Shown here: positions 14,430-33,672 of the stretch, piece after piece
Layout: each line of letters opens with the position of its first letter
How positions within the stretch are numbered: position 1 is the stretch's first letter
Made by a program: the position numbers and the translations under genes
Source: Actinomycetes bacterium
GTDB taxonomy: Bacteria; Actinomycetota; Actinomycetes; Propionibacteriales; Propionibacteriaceae
Direction of reading: 5' to 3'
DNA: 37,908 nucleotides
NCBI GenBank assembly: GCA_021781735.1
Contig: JAJXWF010000011.1
Coordinates: forward strand, 1-37,908
Notes under the pieces: model-generated
Databases searched by the model: none
Seen by the model: the letters and a program-made list of their open reading frames with translations, nothing else
What the model was told of the DNA's origin: nothing

Positions 14430-14671
14430 GGAGACTCCTGGGGTAGGGCATGGACGTGGACCGGGGTCCAGCCAAACACATCGCACCCCCTCAGTTCGGG
14501 CGCCGCGCCCGACCTCGCAATCCGCAGGCGCGTGACGTGTCAGGCGTCCCGGCGGGACAAGGACGGCCCACTCGCCCGCAGATCCGGAGGCGAGCGTCCC
14601 GTGCTCGGGCCGGTGCGCCGAGCTCGGCGTCCCGGTGCTCGGGGTCGGGGTCCCGGTGTGCCGGAGTCAGG

Positions 14672-14731
14672 GTCCGGTGTGCGGGGCCGGCGTCCGGTGT
14701 GCGGGGCCGGCGTCCGGTGTGCGGGGCCGGG
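14672..14731. repeat. 20-bp tandem repeat, three copies
   Basis: The unit GTCCGGTGTGCGGGGCCGGC occurs three times head to tail (14672-14691, 14692-14711, 14712-14731, the last differing at its final base). Degenerate relatives extend the array upstream to about 14594 and slightly downstream. There are no unique spacers, so it is not a CRISPR array. Confidence 0.85.
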
Positions 14732-14775
14732 GTCCGGCACCCCGCGAACAACTTGTCGCTCGCGGGGTACGAACC

Positions 14776-14811: not shown

Positions 14812-14906
14812 CTCTCGTCGGCCGCACGACGGTGGCACAGAGTCGTCCGGATGCGATGGCAGGCCGGATCCCTCCGCGCGGAACCCCGCCGGCACCGGGA
14901 CCGACC

Positions 14907-15008
14907 TGCTGGCGATCACTGCTCCGGCTGGCGAAAACCACACCTGATCGGCAGCGATCGCCAGCAGGTCGGCAGAGATCGCCAGCAAAAGCGTCGAAGT
15001 CGCCAGCC
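14907..15008. repeat. Dispersed stem-loop repeat, copy A
   Basis: The core is a stem-loop with 16-nt arms (14907-14922 and 14951-14966, one A-C mismatch) and a 28-nt loop. Extra copies of the CGCCAGC motif follow up to 15008. The minus strand of 33592-33672 carries the same structure with 16-nt arms and a 28-nt loop, and the first 17 loop bases are identical in both copies. See the matching entry and the finding. Confidence 0.8.
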
Positions 15009-15136: not shown

Positions 15137-16711
15137 TCAGATGACAGGCATGTCGCGGCGGCGGAAGCCCACGACGGCGAGCCCGACGAGGACGACGGCG
15201 ATGAGCGACATGACGATCTCCGGGGCCCAGGACATCGGTTCGACCGGGATCCTCGGCACATGGGCGAACGGGGAGATCTTCAGCGTCCAGCTGGGAAGGC
15301 CGATGAGCGAACCGAGCTCGCCGAGGACGACGACACCGGCGAGCAGCGCCCAGCCGAGCCAGTCGACGCGAGGCAGCCAGGCGACGACCACCGCGACCGC
15401 CGCGGTCATCACCCAGATCGCCGGCAGATAGGCGAGGGCGGGCGAGGTTTCCCGCCAGAACCCCGTCGACCCGGTGAGATGGGCGCCGGCCATGGTCACG
15501 CCCAGCAGCGCCACCAGCACGGTGGCACCCACGAACCCGATGACGAGGTGCGAGGTGAGGAACCGGCGCCGGGTGACCGGGGTGGCGAGCAGGGTTTCCA
15601 TGTGACCGGTCGACTCCTCGGAGCGCACCCGCATGAGCGCCGAGACGCCGAAAGCGGTTGCACCGAACGACCCCATGCCCGCCACCAGGGTGAGGTAGAT
15701 GTCGTTGAAATTCCCCACCCCGCCGAGCTTGCGCAGGATGTCGCCGGCCGAGCCGGTCATGAAACCACCGACGGTGTTGATGATCGAGCCGAACAGCGCG
15801 CCGATCACGGTGAACGTGATGACCCATCCGACGAGTCCGGCGCGCTGCAGCCGCCAGGCGAGAGCTTCCGGGGTGCCCATCGTGCCGGTGGGGCTGCCGG
15901 CGCGGTCGGCGAGCAGGCCCGCCCCGAGGTCGCGGTGTCCCTGCAGCCAGCCGGCCACCGGCAGGCAGATGGCCAGGAACAGTACCGGAACGACCAGCGG
16001 CCAGGCCCGGTCGCCGTCGAAGTAGCGCACCTGCTGGCCCCACCCGAGCGGAGACGCCCAGCTGAGTACCCGGGCCGGGCGGTTCCACGACACGTCACCG
16101 ATGGTGCGCAGCACGAACGCGACGCCGAGCGCGCCGAAGATCCATCCGCCACAGGCCCGGTTGCTGCTCGACAGCTGCACGGCGATGGCGGTGAGCCCCG
16201 TGAACGACAGGCCGACACCCGCCTGCGCCAGGCCGAACAGCACCGAGCCGGCCACCGGCCAGCCGCCGGCGATGGACGCCGGGATCGTGACGAATCCGGA
16301 GACGAGGGAGGTGAGGACCGCGAGCAGCACGGCCGCGCCGAGCGGGGCGTGCCGCCGGACGCTGGTGGAGCCGAGCAGTTCGAACCGCCCGGACTCCTCC
16401 TCGGCGCGGGTGTGCCGGCGCACGATGGCGATGACCAGGAACGACAGCACCAGGAAGTTGAGCATCGCGACCTTGTTCGCGCCGATGCCCCCGACCGAGT
16501 CAAGGTGGTAGACGTGCCCGTAGATCGCGACCACACCGGTGCTCTCGTTCGCCGCCTGATTCGCCGCCATCAACTGCTCGGTGTTCGAGTAGAGCGTCGG
16601 CATCGCGGCGGCCGAATAGTAGGTGAGCACCCAGATGACCAGCAGCGACGCGATGATCATCACCCGGTCCCGGCGCCACGCGAGTCGGAGCAGCCCGCGC
16701 CAACCGGTCAC
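15137..16711 (-). CDS. ABC-2 type exporter permease (TnrB-like)
   Basis: This 524-residue polytopic membrane protein has about twelve hydrophobic segments arranged as two ABC-2-like halves. It resembles the permeases of the actinobacterial polyketide-antibiotic exporter group (TnrB-like, COG3559). The RRHTRAEEESGRFELLGSTSVRRHAPL stretch after the second helix and the matching RSEESTGHMETLLATPVTRRRFL in the second half are the cytoplasmic coupling segments typical of that group. It overlaps the ATP-binding gene by four bases (16708-16711) and forms the export channel with it. The substrate is unknown; such pairs often confer drug tolerance or export lipids. Confidence 0.85.
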   Translation of the reverse strand: MTGWRGLLRLAWRRDRVMIIASLLVIWVLTYYSAAAMPTLYSNTEQLMAANQAANESTGVVAIYGHVYHLDSVGGIGANKVAMLNFLVLSFLVIAIVRRHTRAEEESGRFELLGSTSVRRHAPLGAAVLLAVLTSLVSGFVTIPASIAGGWPVAGSVLFGLAQAGVGLSFTGLTAIAVQLSSSNRACGGWIFGALGVAFVLRTIGDVSWNRPARVLSWASPLGWGQQVRYFDGDRAWPLVVPVLFLAICLPVAGWLQGHRDLGAGLLADRAGSPTGTMGTPEALAWRLQRAGLVGWVITFTVIGALFGSIINTVGGFMTGSAGDILRKLGGVGNFNDIYLTLVAGMGSFGATAFGVSALMRVRSEESTGHMETLLATPVTRRRFLTSHLVIGFVGATVLVALLGVTMAGAHLTGSTGFWRETSPALAYLPAIWVMTAAVAVVVAWLPRVDWLGWALLAGVVVLGELGSLIGLPSWTLKISPFAHVPRIPVEPMSWAPEIVMSLIAVVLVGLAVVGFRRRDMPVI

Positions 16712-31145: not shown

Positions 31146-33458
31146 ATGACCATGTGGCAGGACCCCAGCCAACCCGCCCCCGTGCGGGCCCGCGCGCTGC
31201 TCGACGAGATGGGCCTGGACGAGAAGATCTTCCAGCTCGGCTCGTTCTGGCCGAGCCCGAAGGAGAGTGACAGTCTCTTCGAGGGCGACGTCGCCCCGAT
31301 GGAGTCGGCCCTGTCGGGCGGATTCACCTTCGAGGATGCGAGCCGCCTCGGTCTCGGCCACATCACGCGCAACTTCGGCACCGAACCGGTGAGCGTCGAG
31401 GAGGGGATCGCCACCCTGCGCGAGGTGCAGGCCAAGGTCGTCGCCTCGTCCCCGCACGGAGTCCCGGCAATCGCGCACGAGGAGTGCCTCACGGGCTTCA
31501 CCGCCTACGGGGCCACGGTCTACCCTGCAGCGATCGCCTGGGGAGCCACCTTCGACCCCGCGTTGATCGAGGAGATGGCCGCGGCGATCGGGAGCGATCT
31601 GCACGCGGTCGGCGTCCATCAGGGCCTGTCGCCGCTGCTCGACGTGGTGCGCGACTACCGCTGGGGCCGGGTCGAGGAGACGATCGGCGAGGATCCCTAC
31701 CTCGTCGGCACCCTCGGCACCGCCTACGTGCAGGGCCTGGAGTCCGCGGGCATCGTCGCCACCCTGAAACACTTCGCCGGCTACCCGGCGTCCAAGGGCG
31801 GGCGAAACCATGCCCCGGTGCCGATGGGACGCCGCGAGCTCGAGGACGTCATCCTGCCGCCGTTCGAGATGGCCGTTCGCGAGGGGCGCACCCGGTCGGT
31901 GATGAACTCCTACAGCGACATCGACGGGGTGCCCGCGGGGGCGAGCGTCGAGTTGCTGACAACCGTGCTGCGCGACCGGTGGGGCTTCACCGGGACCACG
32001 GTGAGCGACTATTGGTCGGTGCTGTTCCTCGAGTCGATGCACCGGGTCGCCGCCGATCTCGCGGACGCCGGGCGCCTCGCGATCACCGCCGGCATCGACG
32101 TCGAGCTACCGGGCACCGGCGCCTACGCCCATCTCGCCGACCTGGTCCGCGAGGGCCTCCTCGACGAGGCGATCGTCGATCGGGCCGTGCTCCGGGTGCT
32201 CGAGCAGAAGGCGGAGCTCGGCCTGCTCGACCCGGACTGGGACGCGGCCTCACAGGGGTCGCCCACCGACCTCGACTCACCGCGTAACCGCGACATCGCC
32301 CGCCGCCTGGCCGAACAGAGCATCGTCCTGCTCGCCAACGACGCCCCGATCCTCCCGCTCGGGAACGTGTCGCGTGCGGCGCTCATCGGCCCGTGCGCCG
32401 GAGACCCGCGCACGTTCATGGGCTGCTATTCGTTCCCCAACCATGTGATGGGTCGCTATCCCGGACGCCCGCTCGGGTTGCCGATCACCTCCCTCCCCGA
32501 CGCCCTGGCGGCCGAGTTCCCCGGCGTCGCCTGGGTGCGCGAGCAGGGCTGCCCCATCGTCGAGCCCGACCGCGGTGGCATCGCCGCGGCCGTGGCTGCC
32601 GCCCGCGGGGCGGACGTGGCGATCGTGACCGTCGGTGACCTCGCGGGCATGTTCGGCCAGGGCACCTCGGGTGAGGGCTGCGACGTGGTCGACCTCACCC
32701 TGCCCGGCGTCCAGGCGGAGCTGGTCGAGGCGGTGCTGGCCACCGGCACGCCGACAGTGCTGCTGGTGATCAGCGGGCGCCCCTACGCGTTGGGCGCCTT
32801 CGCCGACCGGTGCGCCGCGATCGTCCAGGCGTTCATGCCCGGTGTCGAGGGCGGCGCCGCGATCGCCGGGGTCCTCAGCGGGCGGATCAACCCGTCGGGC
32901 CGGCTGCCGATCGCGATTCCCAACCACCCGGGCGGCCAACCGGGCACCTACCTCGCCCCGCGACTCGGCTGGTTCAACGAGGGCGTCTCCAACCTCGACC
33001 CTCGCCCGCTCTACCCCTTCGGCCATGGCCTGTCGTACGGTTCGTTCGAGCTGAGCGACCTGGCCCTGAACAGCGCCACGGTTCCCGTCGACGGCTCGGT
33101 GACGGTCTCGGTGACGGTGCGCAACCCGGGCGCCCGGGCGGGATCCGAGGTCGTGCAGCTCTACGCCCACGACGAGGTCGCCCAGGTGGTGCGCCCCCTC
33201 AAGGAGCTCATCGGCTACCGCAAGGTGTCGCTCGAGCCGGGTGCCGCGGCGCGCGTGAGCTTCGAGGTGGACGCCGACAGGTTCTCGTTCACCGGCATCG
33301 ACTACCAGCGGATCGTGGAGCCCGGCCAGGTGACGCTGATGGCCGGTCGCTCCAGCGAGGACCTCGGGCTGAGCACCACGGTGGTGCTCACCGGGGCGAC
33401 CCGGCCGGTGCCCGAGGGCCGGGTGCTCGTGACCCCGACCACGGTCTCCCCCGTGTGA
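31146..33458 (+). CDS. GH3 beta-glycosidase (beta-glucosidase/beta-xylosidase type)
   Basis: This 770-residue enzyme releases sugars from the non-reducing end of beta-glycosides in the cytoplasm (no signal peptide). It has the N-terminal GH3 barrel with KHFAGY and the likely nucleophile Asp288 in TTVSDYWSV, then the alpha/beta sandwich domain (about 390-600; VAIVTVGDLAGMFGQGTSGEG). It ends with a fibronectin-III-like domain introduced by LYPFGHGLSYGSFE. The SDY form and overall layout are common in beta-glucosidase/xylosidase clades, but the sugar cannot be fixed. The ATG at 31146 follows AAGGAG by nine to ten bases. It is controlled with the divergent LacI-type gene. Confidence 0.9.
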   Translation: MTMWQDPSQPAPVRARALLDEMGLDEKIFQLGSFWPSPKESDSLFEGDVAPMESALSGGFTFEDASRLGLGHITRNFGTEPVSVEEGIATLREVQAKVVASSPHGVPAIAHEECLTGFTAYGATVYPAAIAWGATFDPALIEEMAAAIGSDLHAVGVHQGLSPLLDVVRDYRWGRVEETIGEDPYLVGTLGTAYVQGLESAGIVATLKHFAGYPASKGGRNHAPVPMGRRELEDVILPPFEMAVREGRTRSVMNSYSDIDGVPAGASVELLTTVLRDRWGFTGTTVSDYWSVLFLESMHRVAADLADAGRLAITAGIDVELPGTGAYAHLADLVREGLLDEAIVDRAVLRVLEQKAELGLLDPDWDAASQGSPTDLDSPRNRDIARRLAEQSIVLLANDAPILPLGNVSRAALIGPCAGDPRTFMGCYSFPNHVMGRYPGRPLGLPITSLPDALAAEFPGVAWVREQGCPIVEPDRGGIAAAVAAARGADVAIVTVGDLAGMFGQGTSGEGCDVVDLTLPGVQAELVEAVLATGTPTVLLVISGRPYALGAFADRCAAIVQAFMPGVEGGAAIAGVLSGRINPSGRLPIAIPNHPGGQPGTYLAPRLGWFNEGVSNLDPRPLYPFGHGLSYGSFELSDLALNSATVPVDGSVTVSVTVRNPGARAGSEVVQLYAHDEVAQVVRPLKELIGYRKVSLEPGAAARVSFEVDADRFSFTGIDYQRIVEPGQVTLMAGRSSEDLGLSTTVVLTGATRPVPEGRVLVTPTTVSPV

Positions 33459-33549
33459 GGTGACGGCGTCCGCGTCCGCGGGCCCCGTGGAGCGCCCGGC
33501 ACCCGGTAGAGCTCGCGGGCACCCGGTCGCGTCGCGGGGACCCGGTCGG

Positions 33550-33589
33550 GCTGGCACGGACCGGGTCCAGCTGGCACGGACCGGGTCGA
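33550..33589. repeat. 20-bp tandem repeat, two copies
   Basis: The unit GCTGGCACGGACCGGGTCNA occurs at 33550-33569 and 33570-33589 with one difference. Looser relatives lie upstream to about 33500. The 20-bp period equals that of the array at 14672-14731. Confidence 0.8.
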
Positions 33590-33591
33590 GC

Positions 33592-33672
33592 GGCTGGCGT
33601 TCTCGACGGTTCGGCTGGCGATCGCTGCCAGTTCCGCGGGGTTTTCGCCAGCCGGAGCAGCGATCGCCAGCC
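33592..33672. repeat. Dispersed stem-loop repeat, copy B
   Basis: A perfect 16-bp inverted repeat (arms 33613-33628 and 33657-33672) encloses a 28-nt loop. A further GGCTGGCG motif begins at 33592. Read on the minus strand it matches copy A at 14907-14966: same arm length, same loop length, and the first 17 loop bases TCCGGCTGGCGAAAACC identical. The arms contain the octamer GCGATCGC. Confidence 0.85.

Follow-up and report, generated by a model that had tools for sequence, protein, structure and literature searches.

Among the small repeats dispersed in bacterial genomes, many are palindromes of the REP type, which are thought to be spread by transposases, and the pneumococcal BOX elements are modular, with a variable number of units. 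The ends of the transposons Tn7 and Mu carry several protein-binding repeats of 21–22 bp in inverted orientation. BIMEs are characterised by the binding of gyrase, IHF or Pol I. REPs are palindromes of 20–40 bp with a short loop and the tag GTAG or CGTC at one end. The tagged REPs are extragenic, lie mostly 3' of coding regions and are found between convergent or unidirectional genes (PMC3733652). The enterobacterial BIME-2 binds DNA gyrase (PMC6379681, PMC2817692).

The window, i.e. the whole stretch of 37,908 nucleotides that was analysed, contains two copies, A and B, of a repeat belonging to a family of intergenic elements that are dispersed, restricted to the genus and about 100 bases long. 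Similarly to BIME-2, the elements are intergenic multi-site mosaics with units both ways round and in variable number; unlike BIME-2, they consist of non-palindromic 14-nt motifs on a 19/23/21-bp grid instead of REP hairpins, are present in about 27 copies and have no RAYT. Working like a BIME is therefore meant as a functional analogy, with no claim of membership. As with the GTAG/CGTC REPs and BIMEs, the elements lie downstream of genes and avoid divergent promoters. In contrast to REPs, the dyad spans 56 bp, a conserved 28-nt interior separates the arms and a single unit is not palindromic. The consensus has no GTAG; the terminal reverse beta site starts with CGTCGA, although these letters do not form a tag at a hairpin foot. 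The Y1 transposase domain of the RAYT family (PF01797) was absent from the genome of the window (G000) and from two other genomes of the same genus (sister species G001 and G002), whereas control genomes were positive. A REP/RAYT element was ruled out due to the lack of both a palindromic 20–40 bp unit and a Y1 transposase, and to the copy number of about 27.

The resemblance to Tn7 and Mu ends lies in multiple inverted repeats of similar length; in the present element, however, 9 nt separate the two abutting "ends", neither cargo nor a transposase was seen, and the positions are inherited. Like the pneumococcal BOX and RUP (PMC3049150), the elements are small interspersed repeats of one lineage, and they are set apart by description, as their positions are conserved across species and their units stand on a phased grid. 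The sequence-only reading had recognised no named family, and Rfam gave no match in the window at gathering thresholds. In the open-licence literature, nothing was found on this element or on intergenic repeats of Propionibacteriaceae.

Anatomy of the element

The repeat had been described as a 60-nt stem-loop occurring twice. The sequence, read directly, agreed with this description of copy A (arms 14907-14922 and 14951-14966, single mismatch A14918·C14955) and of copy B (33613-33672, minus strand), the arms of which pair perfectly. The loop is 28 nt long in both copies and its initial 17 bases, TCCGGCTGGCGAAAACC, are the same. The letters of the outermost pair, T-A in copy A and G-C in copy B, were also given correctly, but T-A is not the true stem end of copy A because the arms reach six bp further out (14901-14922 with 14951-14972). 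The reported stem-loop folded better than all 200 dinucleotide shuffles, with z values of -4.9 and -5.7 on the two strands; the good folding on either strand results from one motif being present as two facing copies.

The real unit is a rigid array of motifs and not the 60-nt hairpin. In the window TCGCCAGC was enriched (11 observed versus 3.5 expected), and motif copies beyond those of the sequence-only reading were detected at 14972-14985 and 14993-15006 in copy A and at 33594-33607 in copy B. The unit is a 14-nt motif, CTGGCGA-NNN-C(TGC/GAC), with the tail defining it as alpha or beta. In the core, a forward alpha at position 0 is followed by a forward beta at +19 and a reverse alpha at +42; beyond the core, further reverse alpha units follow each 21 bp and a reverse beta usually stands last. 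The features of the window are the following:

14909..14922, plus strand: alpha site of copy A at grid 0 (CTGGCGATCACTGC), forming the left arm of the stem as first described
14928..14941, plus strand: copy A beta site (CTGGCGAAAACCAC), grid +19, within the reported loop
14951..14964, minus strand: first reverse alpha site of copy A at grid +42, forming the right arm of that stem
14972..14985, minus strand: second reverse alpha site of copy A at grid +63, absent from the first reading
14993..15006, minus strand: copy A terminal reverse beta site (GTCGAAGTCGCCAG), grid +84
33657..33670, minus strand: copy B alpha site, grid 0, element on the minus strand
33638..33651, minus strand: copy B beta site, grid +19
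33615..33628, plus strand: copy B reverse alpha site, grid +42
33594..33607, plus strand: copy B terminal reverse beta site (CTGGCGTTCTCGAC), grid +63
14599..14737, no strand assigned: imperfect tandem array, 20-bp period, near copy A
33498..33591, no strand assigned: imperfect tandem array, 20-bp period, adjoining copy B
15137..16711, minus strand: 524-aa gene, 3' end towards copy A; element at the same place in the G001 and G002 orthologues
31146..33458, plus strand: GH3 glycosidase gene, 3' end towards copy B; element at the same place in the G001 and G002 orthologues

The tandem repeats of 20-bp period claimed next to the copies were thus present (14599-14737 and 33498-33591). The glycosidase neighbours are also real, GH38 by copy A and GH3 by copy B, but incidental, since other copies adjoin unrelated genes. 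A Pfam search of the 524-aa protein (15137-16711, minus strand) gave no match. Its gene adjoins an ABC ATPase gene, and relatives of the protein are present throughout the family at 29–70% identity.

The 0/+19/+42 grid was kept in 62 of the 63 anchored copies of the three species; two more copies (L132 and L159) were left out of this number as their automatic anchoring failed. The sole exception, L130, has one base deleted, and in L112 and L116, which are among the 62, the spacing is kept with altered letters in the third site. The grid is kept in spite of poor sequence conservation in the 9-nt spacer that precedes the reverse site. The site spacings were quantised: 84 reverse pairs were at 21 bp, 52 forward pairs at 19 bp and 48 facing pairs at 23 bp, with 14 at 31 bp. 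The number of reverse units varies even between orthologues, with two in L117 and five in L137, which indicates that 21-bp units are gained or lost whole. An extra upstream alpha-beta module was determined at -50 in L120, L126 and L130. Another layout, with a beta at -21 and no reverse beta (beta, alpha, beta, reverse alpha), was found for example in L103, L107, L115, L155 and L157. The ends of the elements are not sharply delimited. The beta site differs species-wide, being TTCTC in G002 and AAAAC in G000 and G001.

Distribution, location and inheritance

The repeat was found throughout G000 by a blastn-type search with copy A as the query. A sequence-only covariance model built from 23 copies (R1) detected about 27 full copies in G000, together with fragments at contig edges, and further copies in G001 and G002, 17–20 or more in each; the latter two are incomplete MAGs (77% and 59%). 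The proposal of a dispersed, lineage-specific repeat family was strongly supported by these copies, with none found elsewhere in the family. In the other approximately 196 Propionibacteriaceae genomes R1 gave no match at E≤1e-5, with 25 candidates scored per genome, so that weak copies could escape. When 84,980 species genomes were scanned for the exact pattern, it was detected in one further record only, the Propionibacteriaceae MAG isolate clean1239, which is G001. The core pattern was unmatched in viral contigs, and a viral origin was ruled out on this basis. The presence of the element in sister genera was rejected as well: G008, which has the nearest orthologue of the copy A gene (70% identity), has a 5-bp gap and another neighbour there. 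Near-exact motifs of the genome fall almost entirely inside the elements (61 of 63). Several G000 copies are no further than about 1 kb from a contig end (C127:1-33, C131:240-305, C38:867-935, C51:919-987, C184:3626-3694 and C32:8742-8810), suggesting that repeats beside the elements break the assembly and that the copies are undercounted.

The elements are always intergenic and mostly just past the 3' ends of genes, which were called with a simple purpose-written codon-usage caller. The gaps bearing elements were convergent in 16, tandem in 28 and divergent in 5 cases, compared with 4, 26 and 28 among the other gaps of at least 100 bp at the same loci (p = 5e-6, convergent versus divergent), and in 23 of the 28 tandem gaps the element was nearer to the upstream stop (p = 0.0007); both p-values are optimistic because orthologous copies are not independent. 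Relative to transcription, the element had a weak bias of orientation (19 to 9). In G002, two copies closely follow tRNA genes, L106 at 26 bp past tRNA-Thr and L109 at 73 bp past tRNA-Gly. The neighbouring genes are functionally unrelated and include glycosidases, transporters, dehydrogenases, a histidine kinase, lumazine synthase and a PPDK-like gene, among others. Imperfect tandem arrays, often of 19–22 bp, were present outside the element in 21 of 40 element gaps and in 7 of 42 other gaps (p = 0.001), a comparison confounded by gap type.

By comparison of the flanking genes, 13 of 17 copies in G001 and 7 of 20 in G002 are located between orthologous genes that carry a copy in G000; the orthologues of copy A are L122 and L100, and those of copy B are L127 and L113. 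In the 13 orthologous pairs of G000 and G001, the motif columns were 99.7% identical, a value overestimated since the copies were found through motif similarity, and the linker columns 77%. Judged from these columns, the motifs look to be under constraint. The linkers of G000-G001 orthologues were more alike than those of shuffled partners or paralogues (0 of 5000 permutations), which argues for the vertical descent of the copies. Between G002 and G000/G001, the linkers had no excess likeness (orthologues 55%, paralogues 59%) and are uninformative, so at that depth it is the shared positions that speak for common descent; the G002 copies may have been gained independently at preferred sites. 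The fixed length of the element could partly reflect copying and not selection.

Base pairing at the RNA level

The conserved RNA structure with compensatory pairing that had been proposed for the repeat was not well supported. The variable stem positions had no arm-to-arm covariation within elements; in the CTGG class, the arms paired equally well within and between elements (alpha p = 0.76, beta p = 0.80). In the alignment of 23 copies, the core pairs were invariant or nearly so, and three central stem positions were unpaired in 5 to 11 of the 23. As the paired core is invariant in its letters, it is silent on pairing. The covariation term of RNAalifold was about zero and the shuffle controls with whole 21-bp arms were slightly positive. 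Most double changes were located in the six flanking pairs, where flank types such as CGAGTTG/CAACTCG occur; the claimed compensatory outer pair sits in this flank, and only about half of the copies pair there. The beta motif of the loop was conserved to the same degree as the stem. Beta and reverse beta are largely complementary in G002, with about 17 bp in the best cases; in G000 and G001 the beta is CTGGCGAAAAC, to which the reverse beta is unmatched. The pairing of beta with reverse beta is consequently not conserved.

The main compensatory-looking change is a switch from T-A to G-C, all-or-none per element, in one species. At motif position 2 of the G002 copies, T was determined in 14, G in 6 and a mixture in none, counting recognisable sites. 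The CGGGCGA-like class consists of six copies (L111-L116), with the copy B orthologue among them. For three of these six, the orthologous position in G000 has a copy of the CTGG or of a mixed type. The switch could be due to base pairing, to the replacement of whole elements or to a second protein specificity.

Several further candidates were rejected. U-runs of 4 or more within 15 nt past the element were found in 0 of 62 and 0 of 63 copies on the two strands, which rules out an intrinsic terminator. An RNA pseudoknot of interleaved alpha, beta, alpha' and beta' was dismissed as the short connectors could probably not span 15-bp stems, G000 and G001 no longer have the beta pairing, and the layout with a beta at -21 lacks the reverse beta. 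A protein-coding repeat of 7 residues (21 nt being 7 codons) was set aside on inspection by eye, as there is no common start and the motifs occur both ways round.

A proposed DNA docking array and its rivals

The explanation to which we give an about even chance, judging from sequence comparison, is a genus-specific, positionally conserved, BIME-like array for multi-site docking on double-stranded DNA at the ends of transcription units. The 14-nt motif would be a putative binding site on double-stranded DNA. Steps of +42 and 21 bp correspond to four and two B-DNA turns, by which the bound proteins would come to lie on one face of the helix. In favour of the array are the grid with its quantised spacings, the motifs being conserved more than the linkers, the orthologous positions, the location at 3' ends, the missing arm-to-arm covariation in the CTGG class and the near confinement of the motif to the elements. 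By analogy with BIMEs, the assembled complex may have an architectural, supercoil-handling or read-through-limiting role at these ends. Several points weigh against the docking array: the forward spacings of +19 and +31 are not exact multiples of 10.5, the all-or-none T/G distribution in G002 would be explained more simply by pairing or whole-element replacement than by independent protein sites, the motif conservation is overestimated, and the fixed length may come in part from copying.

A rather doubtful alternative is an RNA-level element, in which the array would be transcribed as part of 3' untranslated regions and hairpins of alpha with reverse alpha, or alternatively of beta with reverse beta, would stabilise mRNA ends or aid Rho-type termination. 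The 3'-end location, the strong predicted fold, the core pairs formed in every aligned copy and the complementarity of the G002 beta sites are all in its favour, as is the T to G switch of G002, which preserves the complementarity of the arms at that position. The a-b-a'-b' order, however, could probably not form both stems with such short connectors, U-runs are missing, and the orientation is biased only weakly with respect to transcription. The absent covariation, the loop as conserved as the stem and the unconserved beta pairing favour the DNA array over the RNA element. Remnants of non-autonomous mobile elements (MITE-like), with the inverted 21-bp repeats as former transposase binding sites, would account for the dispersed copies with inverted multi-site ends, the species-wide shift of the beta site and the many G002 copies without a G000 counterpart. 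We regard this origin as improbable: many positions are common to the species, the G000-G001 linkers are shared by descent, the linkers within a genome are about 64–67% identical, which indicates no recent burst, and besides the missing Y1 transposase no transposase gene adjoined the copies examined. Ordinary operator sites of a transcription factor would fit the conserved motif and the phased spacing, and are nevertheless very improbable, as the motifs are nearly absent outside the elements; a transcription-factor regulon was ruled out since divergent promoter gaps are avoided and the neighbouring genes share no function.

Going further with the docking array, we tentatively propose a genus-specific chromosomal system in which helically phased arrays at the ends of transcription units would serve for the assembly of a putative multimeric protein that binds DNA, or of two paralogues that read CTGGCGA and CGGGCGA, with approximately 20–27 loci co-evolving with the specificity of the protein. 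The array is a fixed grid of a non-palindromic motif, kept at the same gene ends across species the flanking proteins of which have diverged by about 5–25%. With about 27 natural replicates and a clear prediction for spacing, the function of gene-end repeats would become testable by simple binding and spacing experiments.

At one orthologous locus, beside a dehydratase gene, the G002 element L110 has the opposite orientation to the gene from that of L144 and L126, which an element acting at the DNA level could tolerate.
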